From Chloroflexota bacterium (lineage in GTDB: Bacteria > Chloroflexota > UBA11872), in assembly GCA_009839425.1 (NCBI GenBank), contig VXPS01000335.1, positions 1 to 33,683 of the forward strand: a stretch of DNA of 33,683 nt, in the 5' to 3' direction. This document shows positions 5,918-13,629 of the stretch, in pieces. Each line of letters starts with the position of its first letter. Within the stretch, counting starts at the first letter, position 1. The position numbers and the translations under genes were made by a program. Under the pieces are notes generated by a model. It saw only the letters and a program-made list of their open reading frames with translations, was not told the origin of the DNA and ran no database searches.

Positions 5918-6616
5918 TTATCCAGGGCTGCCCGGAATCCGTAGTTGTTGGCCAACGAAGATGCTGTCCGGGTTGCTGATCTGGTTCGCGGCCATCAGAT
6001 CGTTAATGCTCACGCCAAAGGCGACGGCAATGGCGCTGAGCGTGTCGCCGGGCTGGACCGTGTATGGCCCAGGGGCGTCCTCCTGCTCGGGGACCTCCGT
6101 GCCCTCGGGCAGCAACAGGCGCTGACCGACCAAGAGGTTGTTGGGATCGGGAATGTCGTTGAGGTCCACGATCACGCTAACCGGCACGTTGTACAGCTGC
6201 GAGATCCTTGACAGAGTTTCGCCGGCTCGAACCGTATGGGTCGCCGGTGTCGGAGCCGGCGTTGGCGTCGGTGTGGGCACCGGCGTGGGCGTGGCCGTGG
6301 GCGTGGGCGACAACACCACGATCTCAACGCCGGACTGGGCGGCCTCCGTAACGGAGGGCGATGTTTGCGACGAGAGTCCAACTCCCACCGGCGCCCCCCG
6401 CAGCGCGGCGTCGCCGGCCGCGGAAGCGGCGGCCCGATACCCATCTTCCTGCCAGGCCAGGATCCGCCAGGCAATCAGAACGGCGGCCAGTAGCAGCGCA
6501 AGCCGGACGTACCGAACCCAATGCCGATCCAGCGGCCGCAGGGCGTCCGGCCCTGTGACCTTGACCCAACGCAGTTCGGGTTCAACGGGCGGGCCCGACT
6601 CAGTGTCGGTCACCAT
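5918..6616 (-). CDS. Membrane-anchored protein with two LysM domains
   Basis: 232 residues: a basic/polar cytoplasmic N-terminus (1-37), one membrane helix (about 38-54, RLALLLAAVLIAWRILAW), an extracytoplasmic stretch, a Thr/Pro linker of TPTP repeats (about 103-125), then LysM 1 (about 127-170, HTVRAGETLSRISQLYNV) and LysM 2 (about 184-228, YTVQPGDTLSAIAVAFGV). LysM modules bind N-acetylglucosamine-containing glycans, usually peptidoglycan; with no catalytic domain this is likely a cell-envelope binding or tethering protein. The ATG overlaps the end of the glycerate-kinase gene by 7 bases (ATGGTGA), implying coupled translation. It is the last gene of the recJ-to-LysM run. Confidence 0.88.
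   Translation of the reverse strand: MVTDTESGPPVEPELRWVKVTGPDALRPLDRHWVRYVRLALLLAAVLIAWRILAWQEDGYRAAASAAGDAALRGAPVGVGLSSQTSPSVTEAAQSGVEIVVLSPTPTATPTPVPTPTPTPAPTPATHTVRAGETLSRISQLYNVPVSVIVDLNDIPDPNNLLVGQRLLLPEGTEVPEQEDAPGPYTVQPGDTLSAIAVAFGVSINDLMAANQISNPDSIFVGQQLRIPGSPG
6242..6310 (-). repeat. Thr/Pro-coding low-complexity repeat in the LysM gene
   Basis: A tandem GT/GC-rich tract whose minus strand encodes the TPTP linker of the LysM protein (residues about 103-125). Its length can vary by slippage. Confidence 0.7.
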
Positions 6617-7938
6617 CCGAACGCCATATATAGATCATTCACGTTGGTGCCCGTCGGTCCCAGGCGCACCAGGTCGCCACAGCATTGGAGGTAGCTGTAG
6701 GAGTCGTTGTCTTCGAGGGCGCTGGCGCAGTCCCCACCGGCGGCTCGCGCCCTCTCGATGGTCGTCCAGTCAATCAAGCCGCCGCAGGCGTCGGTGGGCC
6801 CGTCGGTTCCATCTGTAGCCAGCGCCAGGACCGCCGTGTTTGGCTCGCCCGCCAACTCCTGGGCAGCCGCCACGGCAAGCTCCTGGCTCCGCCCCCCGCG
6901 CCCATGGCCACGCACGGTCACAGTGGTCTCTCCCCCGAAAATCGCGCACCCCGGCCGCCGCACCGGGCGTCCGCTGCGCGCGATGTCGATCGCCGCCCCC
7001 GCCACCAGCTTGGCGATTTCCCGCGCCTCGCCTTGAACTCGAGACGTCAGGAACTGGGCATGCAAGCCGGCTGCTTCCGCCGCGGCAGCGGCAGCCAGAC
7101 CCGCGCGGGCGTTATCGGCGATCACGAGATTCGAGACTCGTTCGAACAGCGGATCGTCAGGCGTCGGTGTTTCGGGCAGCCCGCCGCGGGCGCCCAGTTC
7201 CAGGCGCTCGCGGATCGAAGCGGGCGCTGCGGCACGCAGATCAAACGCGTCCAGCGCCGCCAGCGCATCTGCATAGGTCGTCGGATCGGGCGACGTAGGC
7301 CCGGAGGCAATGACGTCAATAGGATTCCCTACCACGTCGCTCACCAGCAGGCCAACGACTCGCGCCGGCTCGGCGGCCGCCGCCAGCAGGCCGCCGTGAA
7401 ACACGGACAGGTGCTTCCGAATCGCATTCATCTGGTTGATGGTGGCGCCCGAACGCAGCAACTGGTCGGTGACCTTCTGAAGCTCCGCCAAGGTGACTCC
7501 GTCCGGCGGGCACGGCGTGAGCGCCGATCCGCCCCCGGAGATGACACATAGCACCAAGTCGCCTTCGCCGGCGTCGCCTGCCATCTCCAGCAGCCGCCGG
7601 GTCGCCGCTTGCCCGCGCGCGTCGGGCACGGGATGGCCCGCAGCCAAGACTTCGATCTGCTCGGCGGGCGACTCATAGCCGTCCTTGGTGATGACCAGCC
7701 CGCCTTCGACGCGATCGCCCAGAATGTCCACCAGCGCCTCGGCCATGCGAGGACTGGCCTTACCGGCGCCAAGCACGATCACGCGCCTGGCCTCGACGTC
7801 AGGAACGTGCAGGCTCCCGATCTGGATTCCGTCGTCGGTCAGCGCAACGGTTTCTTTGACGGCTGTCGCGGGATCCACCGCGGCAATAGCCGCCCGCCCA
7901 ATCGCCATGATCGTGGCGCGCATCGGGTCATCCCGCAC
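6610..7938 (-). CDS. Glycerate kinase, MOFRL/GckA family (glycerate 2-kinase type)
   Basis: Phosphorylates D-glycerate with ATP, feeding glycolysis from hydroxypyruvate, serine or glyoxylate routes; this family generally makes 2-phosphoglycerate. The ~442-residue product has the N-terminal RAAIAAVDPATAVKETV, the VLGAGKASPRMAEA segment, EVLAAGHPVPD, the glycine loop VISGGGSAL, the SDVVGNPIDVIASGPT motif, and the C-terminal MOFRL motifs IFGGETTV, GRGGRSQELA and ATDGTDGPTDACGG, ending GPTGTNVNDL. All match the Thermotoga-type enzyme. I take GTG at 7936-7938 as start because GGAG lies 9 bases upstream and the length then matches the family; ATG at 7923 is the alternative. The frame is open further upstream but there it overlaps degV. 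Confidence 0.92.
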   Translation of the reverse strand: MRDDPMRATIMAIGRAAIAAVDPATAVKETVALTDDGIQIGSLHVPDVEARRVIVLGAGKASPRMAEALVDILGDRVEGGLVITKDGYESPAEQIEVLAAGHPVPDARGQAATRRLLEMAGDAGEGDLVLCVISGGGSALTPCPPDGVTLAELQKVTDQLLRSGATINQMNAIRKHLSVFHGGLLAAAAEPARVVGLLVSDVVGNPIDVIASGPTSPDPTTYADALAALDAFDLRAAAPASIRERLELGARGGLPETPTPDDPLFERVSNLVIADNARAGLAAAAAAEAAGLHAQFLTSRVQGEAREIAKLVAGAAIDIARSGRPVRRPGCAIFGGETTVTVRGHGRGGRSQELAVAAAQELAGEPNTAVLALATDGTDGPTDACGGLIDWTTIERARAAGGDCASALEDNDSYSYLQCCGDLVRLGPTGTNVNDLYMAFGW

Positions 7939-7987
7939 GAGCGACGGCTCCGTCCCGGTCAACTTTGCGTCCAGTGTAGGCAGCGCG

Positions 7988-8866
7988 TCAGTTCGATCGT
8001 GCGCAATAAGCCAGGCCAACGAGATCGGGACCGACGTGCGCGCCCATGACCGGCGTGAAGCCGGTGACATACAGATCATCCGGCGCCATCTCCCGTCGAA
8101 CCTGCTCAGCCAACTCGTGCGCCTCATCCACCGCCGCCGCGTGGTGGACGGCAACACCCAGGTAGCTCGCGTCGCGAGCTGCCCGCTCAACGTGCTTCGT
8201 TAGCGCACGCAGCGCACGGGCTCGCGAGCCGACGGAGGCACGAAATCGAATACGGCCATGCCGCATGCCAAAGATCGGGGTCGACGGCAATGCGTCGGCC
8301 ACCCGCGCCACCACCCAGGGCACCCGACCCCCGCGCGCCAGGTACTCCAGCGAACCCAGCAAGGCCACCACCCCGCTATCGTCCGCAGCCTCGCGCACGG
8401 TCCGCTCGACCGTGTCCAGGTCCGCCCCGGCGCTGGCTGCACGCGCGCCCATTAACACTGGAAACCCGTGCGCCATGGTCGCCGCGCCGGTCTGAATAAC
8501 CCGCACGTACGGCGGTCCGGCGAACTGGCGCGCCGCCATCTCCGCCACCTCGGTCATGGCCGAAATTCGACGGGGAATCGTGGCGCACAGCACGTCCTGC
8601 CCGGCGTCGCGCGCCTTCGCGAACTCGGCGGCATAGGCCGTTGGCGAGGTCGCGCTCGTCGTTGGCAGGTTGGGGTCCGTGGCCAGGCGCTTCCAAAACG
8701 CCTCGTTCGTTATGTCAACCCCATCTCGAAGCTCCTCGCCGTTCCAGACCAGCACGGCGGGCACGATGACAATGCCGTGCGATTCGATTTCGTGAGGTGG
8801 AAGGCAGGCGCTGGAGTCGGTAATCAGCCGGACGCGCCGGTCCTGGTCACGGCCGGTCGCGGTCAA
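7988..8866 (-). CDS. DegV family fatty-acid-binding protein
   Basis: DegV/FakB proteins bind a fatty acid and, in the FakAB system, present it for phosphorylation to acyl-phosphate. The ~292-residue product opens with the family start VRLITDSSACLPP, has LPTTSATSPTAYAAEF (the T-S-x-P substrate loop), LCATIPRRISAMTEVAEMAA, and the lipid-site motif LEYLARGGRVP (family: YLxxGGRI). The start is inferred to be TTG at 8864-8866: a GGAG site lies 8 bases upstream, no closer ATG or GTG exists in frame, and a longer version would add a non-conserved extension within the upstream gene. It overlaps the PlsY-like gene by 20 bases. No FakA kinase is visible in the window. Confidence 0.88.
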   Translation of the reverse strand: MTATGRDQDRRVRLITDSSACLPPHEIESHGIVIVPAVLVWNGEELRDGVDITNEAFWKRLATDPNLPTTSATSPTAYAAEFAKARDAGQDVLCATIPRRISAMTEVAEMAARQFAGPPYVRVIQTGAATMAHGFPVLMGARAASAGADLDTVERTVREAADDSGVVALLGSLEYLARGGRVPWVVARVADALPSTPIFGMRHGRIRFRASVGSRARALRALTKHVERAARDASYLGVAVHHAAAVDEAHELAEQVRREMAPDDLYVTGFTPVMGAHVGPDLVGLAYCARSN

Positions 8867-9464
8867 GCAGGAATCTCCGCCAGAGCAGCGTGGCCGTGGA
8901 TACGTCGTCCGGCGCATCCGCCTTGCGGTACCCGACCAGCCGGGCGGTTATAAGCAGCGCCAGCAGCGTCCAGCCAGCCAGGCTCAGCGTCAGGGCCGCG
9001 CCCGTCAGGCTCAGCACGATGGCCGTGGCAAAGAAACCGATCAGCGCTCCCGGCGCCGAGTCCTTGATGATCGCCTTGCCCAACACCATCCCCGCAAAGG
9101 CCAGCGCCATGTGCCACGACCCCAATGCGGCCAGCGCGCCGCCGGCCGGTCCAATGCCCCGGCCCCCGCGGAATCGCAGCGTAAAGGGCCACACGTGCCC
9201 GGCCACCGCTACCACGCCCGCCACCGCCGAGACCTCGTAGGTGGCCAGTCGCTGCGCGATGAAGATGGCCAGCGCCGGTTTCAGCGCGTCGGCCAGTCCG
9301 GCGATCGCCCCCGGCACCTTGCCGAGCCGCTCGATGGCTGCGGTCCCGCTGACGCCCCCCGAACCCTCTGCCAGCAAGTCGCGACCGGCCAGCCGGCCGG
9401 CCAGGTACGCGAACGGTACCGACCCGATGGAGTAGGCCAGTAGCAGCACGAGCAGGGTCGTCAT
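8847..9464 (-). CDS. PlsY-family (acyl-phosphate:glycerol-3-phosphate acyltransferase) membrane protein, divergent
   Basis: PlsY transfers an acyl chain from acyl-phosphate to glycerol-3-phosphate in the membrane. The 205-residue product has the family's size, its several membrane helices, and its opening AYSIGSVPFAYLAGRLAGRDL. Motif 1, normally GSGN.GATN, reads GSGGVSGTAA; motif 2, normally GH..P...FKGGKG.AT, reads GHVWPFTLRFRGGRGIGPAG; and the C-terminal HRENI-type motif is absent (YRKADAPDD instead). It is therefore a PlsY homologue that may not be a functional acyltransferase, or may use another substrate. The ATG overlaps the relA stop (ATGA). Its neighbour DegV, a fatty-acid carrier family, fits an acyl-phosphate context. 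Confidence 0.8.
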   Translation of the reverse strand: MTTLLVLLLAYSIGSVPFAYLAGRLAGRDLLAEGSGGVSGTAAIERLGKVPGAIAGLADALKPALAIFIAQRLATYEVSAVAGVVAVAGHVWPFTLRFRGGRGIGPAGGALAALGSWHMALAFAGMVLGKAIIKDSAPGALIGFFATAIVLSLTGAALTLSLAGWTLLALLITARLVGYRKADAPDDVSTATLLWRRFLLDRDRP

Positions 9465-11899
9465 TGGCCGTTCCGGCGCGCCGCCGCCTCGCGTGATCGA
9501 TTGCGACGGACGCCGGCCGTATCGCGGGCGACCGAATACACGCTCGGAATTGTCTCCAGGCGCCGCATCAGCCGAGCCATTTGGCCGACGCTGCCCATGC
9601 CCACCGTAATCCGCATGGTGGCCTGGCGCTGCCGGTTGGTGTGCACGTTCGCGGAGGTGATGTTCAGACCCTCGTCGCGAATCACGCCGGTCACGTCGTG
9701 GGTCAGGCCTTCGCGGTCGTCAGCCTGAATGAGTATCTGCACGGGCAGGAGTTGGCTCGTCTCGTCGATCCACCAGACGCGTACGCGGGCACCCGGCAGC
9801 CGGCTACCGGCTCGGCAGCGAGATCGATGCACTTCAATGCCCTGGTCCGCGGCGATGCCGTTGATCTTCATCCCCGGCCTTGGCTTGCAGCAGGCGCCCA
9901 GCCGGATCGGCAGGTCAAGGTCTGCGCCGACCAGCTGGCCGCCCCACTCCACCTCCACCAGTCGCTCGGGCTCGCGGACGTTCTGGACGTTGGCGCAGTT
10001 CATGCGGTGCACGCTGATCCCGTGGCCACGGGTAATGAACCCAACGATCTCGTCCCCCGGCAGCGGATTGCAGCACGAGGCCACGCGCGTGAGCAGATTG
10101 CCGACCCCAAGGACGCGAACCAGGGGCTGCACGTCTCGCACCGACGGCTGCTCCGCTGGCAGCGGCTCAACGTCGGCCTCTTCCACCTCCTCGGTCAGTT
10201 TGAGACGGTTGATGACCTGCGGAACCGTGGTCGCTCCATAACCCACGCCCGCCAGCAGGCTGTCCACGTCGCGGTAGCCCAGGTCGGCCGCCACCGGCTG
10301 CAAACCCTCACCCGGCAGCTGCGAGATGCGCCCCTGGCCCAGGCGCCGCAGTTCCCGCTCCAGCAGTTCCTTGCCCGACTCGATGTTCTCGGCGCGCTGG
10401 CGCCGCTTGAACCACTGCCGAATCTTGTCCCGCGCATGCGCCGTATGCACCAGCGACACCCAGTTGCGGCTGGGACCCTGGCTGTTGCTGCTGGTCAGGA
10501 TTTCCAGCACGTCGCCGTTCTGCAGTTGGTACTCCAATGGCACCAGGCGGCCGTTCACCTTGGCGCCAATACACGTGTGGCCGATGTCCGTGTGGATGCG
10601 GTAGGCGAAGTCCAGCGGCGTGCTGCCGGCCGGAAAGTCCTTGATCTCGCCGCGCGGCGTAAACACGAAGACCGTGTCGCTGAAGAAGTCGGTCTTCACC
10701 GCGTCCACGAACGACCCGGCGGTCTCCTCGTCGGCCTGCCAGGTCAGAATCTGGCGCACCCAGGCCAGCTTTTCAGAGAAGTCTTCCTCACCGTCGTGAT
10801 CGCCGGCCTTGTACCGCCAGTGCGCCGCGACGCCATATTCCGAAGCCGCGTGCATCTCGTGGGTCCGGATCTGAATCTCGATCGGCCGCGCGTCCGGCCC
10901 CAGCACGGCAGTGTGCAGCGAGCGGTAGCCGTTTTCCTTTGGCGCCGAGATGTAGTCGTCGAACTCGGCCGGGATATGCCGCCAGGCACCGTGCACCACC
11001 CCCAGAGCGCTGTAGCAGTCGTGCACGTCATCCACGATCACCCGCACCGCCAGGATGTCGTAGACCTCCTCCAGCGGAACGTTCTTGCGCTGCGTCTTCT
11101 GCTCGATGCTGTAGACGTGTTTAATCCGGCTCTGGATCAGCGCGTCCGTGCCCGCAGTGTCCAGCGCATCCCGCAGCCCCCCGGTGACCGCCTGCACCAC
11201 GTCCTCGCGGGCGGCCCGCTCGGCCAGCAGCCAGCTGGCGATCTCACGGTAGCGCTCGGGCTCCAGCAGCTTGAAGGCGTGATCCTCCAACTGCCAGCGC
11301 CATTCCTCGATTCCCAGCCGGCCCGCCAGCGGGGCGAAGATCTCCAGCGTGTCGCTGGCGTAGCGTTCGCGCTTTTCCGGCCGATACACGTGCGCGGTCT
11401 GCAGGTTGTGCAGGCGGTCGGCCAGCTTGATCAGCACGACGCGGATATCCCGCGCCATAGCCAGGAAGACCTTGCGCAGATTCTGAGCCTGGCGATCGTC
11501 CAGGCTTACGACCGTGATGTCGTCCAGCTTGGTCACGCCGTCCACCAACTCGGCCACGCCGGAGCCGAACCTGGACCGAATCGTCCCGATATCCACGCTG
11601 GTGTCTTCCACGCAGTCGTGCAGCAGGGCGGCGGCCACGGTGTCGGGATCCAGGTGCAGGTTGGCCAGCATCAGGGCCACGCTGATGGGATGCTGGACGA
11701 ACGGTTCGCCGGTGAGTCGCCGCTGCCCGTCGTGGGCCCGCTCGGCCAACTCGGCCGCCCTGCGAATCAGGCGCTCGGCAGCCGGCACGGCATCGGCTGG
11801 CGTGTAGGAACGCACCTCGTCGAGCAAGTCGTCGAGCGTGGTCTCCGTCCGGCCCGTGCCCACCATGGGCGCCAGCGTGGCCGTGACCGATGAGGGCAC
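9461..11899 (-). CDS. rel: RelA/SpoT-type (p)ppGpp synthetase/hydrolase with duplicated zinc-finger domain
   Basis: Long RSH protein making and probably degrading (p)ppGpp, the stringent-response alarmone. Of ~812 residues: HD hydrolase domain with PFVQHP at 66-71 and LLHDCVEDT at 92-100; KLADRLHNLQTA 158-169; synthetase domain with YDILAVRV 280-287, the EXDD motif EFDD at 312-315, and YRSLHT 325-330; TGS domain with VFVFTPRGEIKDFPAGSTPLDFAY 410-433; helical region; a first CC...HR..C finger (Cys609-610, His631, Cys635); a second, similarly spaced one (Cys670-671, His691, Cys695); then a C-terminal ACT-type domain from about 718. Most family members are 720-750 residues; the second finger accounts for much of the excess. 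Start GTG at 11897-11899 follows an AAAGGAG site by 5 bases. Confidence 0.95.
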   Translation of the reverse strand: MPSSVTATLAPMVGTGRTETTLDDLLDEVRSYTPADAVPAAERLIRRAAELAERAHDGQRRLTGEPFVQHPISVALMLANLHLDPDTVAAALLHDCVEDTSVDIGTIRSRFGSGVAELVDGVTKLDDITVVSLDDRQAQNLRKVFLAMARDIRVVLIKLADRLHNLQTAHVYRPEKRERYASDTLEIFAPLAGRLGIEEWRWQLEDHAFKLLEPERYREIASWLLAERAAREDVVQAVTGGLRDALDTAGTDALIQSRIKHVYSIEQKTQRKNVPLEEVYDILAVRVIVDDVHDCYSALGVVHGAWRHIPAEFDDYISAPKENGYRSLHTAVLGPDARPIEIQIRTHEMHAASEYGVAAHWRYKAGDHDGEEDFSEKLAWVRQILTWQADEETAGSFVDAVKTDFFSDTVFVFTPRGEIKDFPAGSTPLDFAYRIHTDIGHTCIGAKVNGRLVPLEYQLQNGDVLEILTSSNSQGPSRNWVSLVHTAHARDKIRQWFKRRQRAENIESGKELLERELRRLGQGRISQLPGEGLQPVAADLGYRDVDSLLAGVGYGATTVPQVINRLKLTEEVEEADVEPLPAEQPSVRDVQPLVRVLGVGNLLTRVASCCNPLPGDEIVGFITRGHGISVHRMNCANVQNVREPERLVEVEWGGQLVGADLDLPIRLGACCKPRPGMKINGIAADQGIEVHRSRCRAGSRLPGARVRVWWIDETSQLLPVQILIQADDREGLTHDVTGVIRDEGLNITSANVHTNRQRQATMRITVGMGSVGQMARLMRRLETIPSVYSVARDTAGVRRNRSREAAARRNGQ

Positions 11900-11919
11900 G
11901 ATGACTCCTTTATCCGCCG

Positions 11920-13629
11920 CTACGCCGACCGCAGCCGGATGTCGTCCACCAGCATCTGCAACAGAGTCTCGCCGCGGAAGCTGCGCAGGCTCAACCTGAA
12001 CGCAACGTCCACGCAACGTCCGCGTTCAAGCACCGGCTGCTGGTCGCCATGGCGAAACCAGATGGCCTCCACATTGCGCGCCAGTTCCTCGAATTGCAGT
12101 ACCACGTGATCCTCACCCACCAGCCGGGTGTTTTGGATGCGTACATTCTCTACGACTAGGCGCGGCTCTTCATGTTCCTGCCCCCAGGGCCCCAGCGACT
12201 CCAGCGCCTGGTAGGTCTCCCACGAGATGGTGCGCGGATACACGCGGCCGTCCGCGCGCAGGCGCGGCCCCGTGAACTCAGGCAGATCGAGGCTGGCGAT
12301 GGCCTGTGCCAGGCCGCGTCGCAGCGCGTTGACGTTGTGCGGCAGCACCGAGAATCCCGCGGCGCCGGCATGACCGCCCCAGCCTTCCAGCCAGTCGGCT
12401 TGCCGCTTCAGCAGATCGCGGAGGTTGAATCCGTCGGGCGCTCGCGCCGAGCCGTGCACCAGCCCGTCAATCTCGGCGCCGATAAACGCGGGCGCGCCAA
12501 ACTCCTCGCTCAGGCGCGAGGCGGCCAGCCCAACCACGCCTGGCGCGAATCCCGGATCGGCGGCCAGAATCACCGGGCTGCCATTGACCATCGCCCGCGC
12601 TGCGTCCACCACGTCCTGGGTCAACCGGCGCCGCTCGGCGTTGAGCTCGTTCAGTTCATCCGCGAGCTCCGCGGCCCGCACCGGATGCCGGGCCTGCAGC
12701 AATTCCAGGGCCAGTTGTGGGCTGGCAATCCGGCCGGCGGCGTTGAGCCGCGGCGCCAGCGCGAAGGCAATGTCGTCCGACCTGATCGCCTCCGGCGTGC
12801 GCCGAGCCGCGTCGGCCAGCGCCCGTAAACCGGGGCGCGGCGAGGCCCGCATCCACTCCAAACCTTCCATCACGTAAGCCCGGTTCTCGTCCGTCAGTGG
12901 CGCAACGTCGGCCACCGTGCCCAGCGCCACCAGGTCCAGGAAGCGCTCGGGGTCCGGAAGTTGCTCCGGAAACTCGTCGGCCAGCGCCTGCACCAGCTTG
13001 TAGGCCACCCCTACCCCGGACAAACCGCCAAACGGGTACCCGGATCCCGGAACATTGGGGTTGAGCAGCGCCACGGCCCGTGCCGGGCGGGCCTCGGTCG
13101 GATGGTGATCGGTCGCGATCACGTCCATGCCGGCCGCCGTCGCTCGATCGATTTCCTCGTGCGCCGTGGCTCCGCAGTCGACCGTGATGATCAGCGTGGC
13201 GCGTTCCCTGGCAACGGCGTCGATCGCGCCGGCGTTGAGCCCGTAGCCTTCGGTCAGCCGCTCCGGGATGTACGGAAAGGCGTCCAGCCCCAGCGCCTCG
13301 GCGGTTTCCAACAGCATCGCGGTGGCGCTGACGCCATCCACGTCGTAGTCGCCATAAATGCACACGCGCTCGCGCTTCCGCATCGCCTGCCCGATGCGCG
13401 CCACGGCCAGGTGCATTTCGTCGAGAAGATAGGGATCGTGCGGTGGCAGTGGACCGAGCAGGAACTCATGCAGCTTCTCGGCTGTGTCGTGCCCGCGGTT
13501 GTGGAGCACCTGGACCGCCAGCGGCGGAAGCTCGTCCAGCGCAGTAAACAGCGCGGCCGGCGCGCGCGGCGCGATGTCCCACACCGCCCCCGTGAGACTG
13601 CGCCTGGGATCGTCGCGCGTGTCAGCCAC
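11920..13629 (-). CDS. recJ: Single-stranded-DNA-specific exonuclease RecJ
   Basis: 5'-to-3' single-strand DNA exonuclease used in recombination and repair. The 569-residue product shows the DHH-superfamily metal motifs in order: GDYDVDG at 93-99, TVDCGAT 149-154, ATDHHPTEA 172-180, VALGTVADVAPL 234-245; then the DHHA1 domain with RLNAAGRI 294-301 and GGHAGAAGF 418-426; and a C-terminal OB-like domain from about 455. The length is that of the standard bacterial enzyme. The start is GTG at 13627-13629; an in-frame TAG four codons upstream leaves little choice. It is the first gene of the minus-strand run and sits 20 bases ahead of the rel gene. A divergent oxidoreductase gene begins 75 bases away. 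Confidence 0.96.
   Translation of the reverse strand: MADTRDDPRRSLTGAVWDIAPRAPAALFTALDELPPLAVQVLHNRGHDTAEKLHEFLLGPLPPHDPYLLDEMHLAVARIGQAMRKRERVCIYGDYDVDGVSATAMLLETAEALGLDAFPYIPERLTEGYGLNAGAIDAVARERATLIITVDCGATAHEEIDRATAAGMDVIATDHHPTEARPARAVALLNPNVPGSGYPFGGLSGVGVAYKLVQALADEFPEQLPDPERFLDLVALGTVADVAPLTDENRAYVMEGLEWMRASPRPGLRALADAARRTPEAIRSDDIAFALAPRLNAAGRIASPQLALELLQARHPVRAAELADELNELNAERRRLTQDVVDAARAMVNGSPVILAADPGFAPGVVGLAASRLSEEFGAPAFIGAEIDGLVHGSARAPDGFNLRDLLKRQADWLEGWGGHAGAAGFSVLPHNVNALRRGLAQAIASLDLPEFTGPRLRADGRVYPRTISWETYQALESLGPWGQEHEEPRLVVENVRIQNTRLVGEDHVVLQFEELARNVEAIWFRHGDQQPVLERGRCVDVAFRLSLRSFRGETLLQMLVDDIRLRSA

Follow-up and report, generated by a model that had tools for sequence, protein, structure and literature searches.

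A long RSH protein with two zinc-finger domains

The window, the whole stretch of DNA analysed here, comprises 33,683 nucleotides from a Chloroflexota bacterium (contig VXPS01000335.1). On its reverse strand, positions 9461–12016 hold a rel gene of the long RSH type (TIGR00691, E = 6e-225), whose longest open reading frame runs from a TTG codon and encodes 851 residues; a GTG codon 39 residues later would give a protein of 812 residues. It is the sole gene with a RelA_SpoT synthetase domain found in this genome, which is 85% complete (one PF04607 match).

The domain map of the protein, all on the same strand, begins with the HD (ppGpp hydrolase) domain (11309–11758, residues 87–236; PF13328, E = 6.1e-50), in which the HDxxED motif reads HDCVED, and the RelA_SpoT synthetase domain (10802–11131, residues 296–405; PF04607, E = 2.4e-41). 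These are followed by the TGS domain (10493–10672, residues 449–508; PF02824, E = 1.1e-25) and the alpha-helical (AH/HEL) domain (10187–10456, residues 521–610; PF19296). Next come a canonical zinc finger (ZFD/RIS/CC domain), here finger 1 (9938–10114; best E = 1.9e-27 to RSH ZFDs in the PDB), and a second zinc finger, finger 2 (9752–9928; best E = 1.6e-12 to the same domains), after which the ACT/RRM domain follows directly (9524–9748, residues 757–831; PF13291, E = 9.1e-17). The protein thus has the features of the Rel subgroup, an HD domain with HDxxED, a synthetase domain and then TGS, AH, ZFD and ACT in order, and departs from the usual six-domain plan in carrying two ZFDs instead of one. 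A single ZFD is the usual composition of long RSHs and not their defining criterion, as some members lack domains.

The bifunctional Rel proteins of Bacillus subtilis (6htq/6yxa) and Mycobacterium smegmatis (8fr8) share the order HD, SYNTH, TGS, AH, ZFD, ACT, and phmmer aligned the window Rel with both (E = 1.8e-165 for 6yxa, 9.7e-181 for the M. smegmatis protein); compared with these two proteins, the window Rel has an extra complete ZFD between the ZFD and ACT.

The flanking genes on the same strand (6610–9464 and 11920–13629) include one for a RecJ-like exonuclease upstream of rel and, downstream, those for a PlsY-like acyltransferase, DegV and a MOFRL/DUF4147 (glycerate-kinase-like) protein. 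A 770-residue frame also lies open antisense to rel (9581–11893, forward strand). It is most likely not a gene; antisense open frames are common in G+C-rich DNA.

Finger 2 is a tandem duplicate of the Rel zinc-finger domain

Finger 1 reads CC-x20-HR-x2-C (C648, C649, H670, R671 and C674; codons 10075 to 9995) and finger 2 reads CC-x19-HR-x2-C (C709, C710, H730, R731 and C734; codons 9892 to 9815). An earlier, sequence-only reading of this DNA had placed the same motifs at 609/610/631/635 and 670/671/691/695, and the translation agrees with it once the offset of 39 for the GTG start is applied. Its description of the spacing as nearly identical is likewise borne out, with 20 and 19 residues, respectively, between the CC pair and the histidine and three residues from there to the last cysteine in both, and the domain map places the second copy where that reading had it, between the canonical finger and ACT.

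Several comparisons confirm the central proposal of that reading, that a Rel-type enzyme carries a zinc finger duplicated in tandem. Aligned locally, the two segments scored 75, compared with 21 ± 4 (maximum 44) for 2000 shuffles. A profile of finger 2 built from 23 genomes aligned with the finger 1 profile over 52 columns in hhalign (probability 99.0, E = 5.1e-18), and the aligned region includes the closing V-x-W strand of both. On TIGR00691, finger 1 falls on model positions 550–603 and finger 2 within the same stretch (555–589). Searched against all PDB sequences, the finger 2 profile matched RSH proteins only, at their zinc-finger domain (E = 1.6e-12 for 6htq, 9e-10 for M. smegmatis Rel, 5.2e-9 for E. 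coli RelA and 5.4e-6 for SpoT). Pfam returned no match with finger 2 alone, because PF19296 barely covers the finger. Finger 2, about 55 residues long, is therefore a full paralogous domain, a tandem duplicate of the Rel ZFD/RIS domain homologous to the ZFDs of RSH proteins.

Structure prediction, which the sequence-only reading had proposed as a check, agreed with this assignment. AlphaFold2 modelled finger 2 alone with a pLDDT of 91 and a pTM of 0.76, and the best nine Foldseek matches of this isolated model were all RSH chains, with E-values (0.05–0.9) that are weak because the domain is small. Its predicted fold resembles the ZFD of Acinetobacter baumannii SpoT (7qpr; rmsd 0.7–0.9 over 33–35 residues by Foldseek), a ribosome-independent hydrolase (PMC9974481) that has a single ZFD where the window Rel has two. 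In a 204-residue model of the C-terminal part, the strands and the short helix follow in the same order in both fingers; how finger 1, finger 2 and ACT sit relative to one another is uncertain in this model (pTM = 0.43). Finger 2 thus matches RSH ZFDs in both profile and fold, and its ligand pattern, C-C-x(about 20)-H-x3-C, is invariant in 23 of 23 sequences. From the conserved ligands and the predicted fold, the window Rel would hold two zinc sites.

In the genomes sampled, the double finger is confined to one sub-clade

We searched 41 genomes of the same class, representing families f1 to f5, where f1 is the family of the window and f2 its sister family in the same order. The double finger was present in 29 of them (f1, 19/19; f2, 4/5; f4, 6/6) and absent from 12, namely all those of f3 (9) and f5 (2) and one f2 genome, G019. 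Since 28 other genomes share the arrangement, an assembly error at finger 2 is ruled out. Of 400 evenly sampled Chloroflexota genomes, 359 lie outside the class, and no double finger was detected among the matches listed for these; a double scores more than 290 bits and a single less than 110. The second motif is accordingly not a normal part of the Rel linker, being absent from the 11 class-mates in f3 and f5, from one f2 genome and from the rest of the phylum sample.

Extra hits elsewhere in the phylum were rejected as further doubles: in 20 genomes checked individually, most of them with such hits, these proved to be ACT proteins of other kinds, additional Rel genes or split hits. A further 80 named loci came from GTDB genomes across several phyla, and the sole double among the matches listed for them was L032, a family f4 record. 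Motif parsing failed for six of the 80, whose match lengths fit one finger. L130 was counted twice solely through a CCC triplet, and L131 has one finger. Paired Rel-like genes occur in some large Chloroflexota genomes: in G061 (C10, 88116–91332) two lie close together, the second with a diverged finger, and G333 (C25) and G249 (C220) have similar arrangements (family f21).

A single ancient gain and one loss

In a Rel protein tree built without the finger 2 region, f1, f2 and f4 formed one clade (support 97/97). Of its 30 members, 29 keep the second finger; the exception, G019 (L112, G019:C14:93000–96300), is nested inside f2, and its ACT domain directly follows finger 1, a clean loss of the second finger. 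This topology implies two changes, which we take to be a gain followed by a loss. When the fingers themselves were compared in a tree, poorly resolved with its 56 columns, a single branch (89/83) set all second fingers apart, and closest to them were first fingers from their own clade, the pattern that a tandem duplication in the ancestor would produce. Both trees disfavour independent duplications in f1/f2 and f4. Judged from these topologies, finger 2 arose by a single ancient duplication in the ancestor shared by the three Chloroflexota families. The question of whether the second finger is clade-wide, raised by the sequence-only reading, thus has a divided answer: it is kept across one old sub-clade and is not general in Chloroflexota.

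Presumed zinc ligands persist in finger 2, rRNA-contact residues do not

We aligned both fingers from 23 sequences, in which identity to the finger 2 of the window falls as low as 29%. Finger 2 has 8 invariant columns (C, C, I, G, H, C, V and W), comprising its four presumed zinc ligands plus core residues, and finger 1 has 20, including TR and the helix residue N42. The dN/dS ratios, 0.12–0.28 for finger 2 and 0.02–0.10 for finger 1, indicate that finger 2 is under purifying selection and is constrained less than finger 1.

The residues lost from finger 2 are those that matter for ribosome docking in E. coli RelA. There, helix 638–647 docks in the groove of the A-site finger and the sheet packs on S19 (PMC4974054), and mutation of R629 and of C612/C613 was used to disrupt ribosome recognition (PMC7058999). 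The RIS/ZFD of this single-finger protein (5iqr, 5kps; residues 599–659) aligns end to end with finger 1, including C612, C613, H634 and C638. In finger 2, by contrast, the TRG(R/H)G loop and the A-site-finger-binding helix residues are missing (ITRG and N42 are gone), and hhalign placed a one-residue deletion at the R629 position, such that neither the R629 loop nor the helix 638–647 contacts are retained.

Where E. coli RelA has R629, a residue in contact with the A-site finger, finger 1 of the window has His (TRGHG), as do all f1 sequences aligned; in the double-finger relatives of f2 and f4, Arg is mostly kept at this position of finger 1.

A proposed role in positioning the ACT domain

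On the ribosome, the ZFD and ACT of RelA form one C-terminal superdomain (PMC4974054); in SpoT, contacts of the ZFD and RRM hold the compact tau, or hydrolase, state (PMC9974481), and in Rel a contact between RRM and SYNTH governs the switch of state (PMC13376610). The suggestion in the sequence-only reading that a doubled finger could alter docking or regulation is plausible. Given that finger 2 keeps the zinc ligands and not the rRNA-contact residues, a doubling of ribosome docking is not its likeliest form.

We propose, with a probability of about 0.5, that finger 1 docks the ribosome and that finger 2 is a zinc-stabilised spacer or docking module that resets the placement of ACT. The canonical finger 1 would keep its role in docking to the ribosomal A-site finger, while finger 2, retaining the predicted zinc-stabilised ZFD fold without the rRNA-contact loop and helix residues, would act as an auxiliary structured module between the canonical finger and ACT (RRM). 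A folded module of 60 residues sits exactly between the two domains, and the ZFD–ACT geometry must therefore change. ACT placement could then differ both on the ribosome and in the compact autoinhibited, or hydrolase, state, which may reset how the enzyme switches between hydrolysing and making ppGpp. What the sequences show is a conserved duplication of single origin that retained its core and lost the contact residues; zinc binding by finger 2, the division of labour and the regulatory effect are what we infer.

In f1, the charge of finger 2 counts against a pure spacer. It is strongly basic in most f1 sequences and not in f2 or f4 (net charge +4 to +8 in most f1 and −1 in one; about 0 to +3 in f4; −4 to +1 in f2), and in f1 this would fit RNA binding instead. 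Finger 2 might then be a second RNA-binding finger that makes a new ribosome contact, with the A-site finger, the 16S head or tRNA, so that docking is stronger or re-sited. Its genuine ZFD fold and conserved ligands would suit such a role, as would the function of the ZFD as the ribosome-docking domain in RelA (PMC4974054, PMC7058999). We nevertheless consider it unlikely: the A-site-finger contact residues are not conserved, and the basic charge is weak in f4 and absent from f2 and from locus L014, so that RNA binding by finger 2, if any, would be lineage-specific.

The 23S A-site finger also speaks against such a contact. A longer A-site finger served by finger 2 should show as a difference in helix 38 of the 23S rRNA between lineages, but this stretch measures 78–80 nt in double- and single-finger lineages alike, and a co-evolved lengthening, looked for across lineages, was not found. 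For this alignment, what we take to be the corresponding stretch of the E. coli 23S rRNA served as a guide to position only. The tip of the A-site finger (L133–L156) reads CAGTCAGACTG or close variants in f1 and f2 and GAGTGRGACGG in f3, f4 and f5, a change that does not follow the finger duplication.

We regard as quite improbable that finger 2 is a protein–protein or redox/metal-sensing module acting through its extra Cys pair, for example in dimerisation or regulator binding. The ligands are its best kept residues, and CC-domain cysteines have been linked to RelA dimerisation (C612, D637 and C638; Atkinson et al. 2011, PMC3153485); structural zinc alone, however, explains the four conserved ligands and the fold core, and f1, f2 and f4 have no conserved surface patch in common. 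Least probable of all is a neutral or slowly decaying duplicate tolerated in the flexible ZFD–ACT linker, as might be read from the ratio of dN/dS in finger 2 to that in finger 1 (1.6 to 5.6) and from the clean loss in G019, because dN/dS in finger 2 is well below 1, the ligands and core do not vary among the 23 sequences despite their divergence, and 29 of 30 clade members retain the domain.

A further step from the ACT-positioning role that we favour is offered tentatively, as somewhat unlikely in its full form: that one Chloroflexota lineage has added a seventh domain to the long RSH, in which finger 1 reads the ribosome while an RNA-contact-free finger 2 repositions ACT, so that the enzyme alternates between ppGpp synthesis and hydrolysis by a different rule.

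Implications for the long-RSH plan

The domain make-up of long RSHs has been described as conserved across homologs. Like the window Rel, proteins in the survey of Atkinson et al. depart from the six-domain plan in particular lineages; the bacterial exceptions in the part of that survey on which we rely are losses (of ACT, CC or helical domains), and that part mentions no duplication (PMC3153485). The double-finger Rel shows that the long-RSH plan is not fixed. We found no report of a doubled ZFD among open-licence papers; the regulator is nearly universal, and this form of it is apparently undescribed.

It is the C-terminal half of Rel that determines when ppGpp is made in bacteria, and how ZFD and ACT contribute to ribosome docking and to autoinhibition is still debated. 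Since a second ZFD pushes the two domains apart, the double-finger Rel and the Rel of its close relative G019, the f2 genome that lost the finger, form a natural pair for testing the ZFD–ACT contact and whether ribosome activation or autoinhibition needs it. On the ribosome side of this pair, the helix 38 stretch of G019 resembles that of its double-finger relatives.
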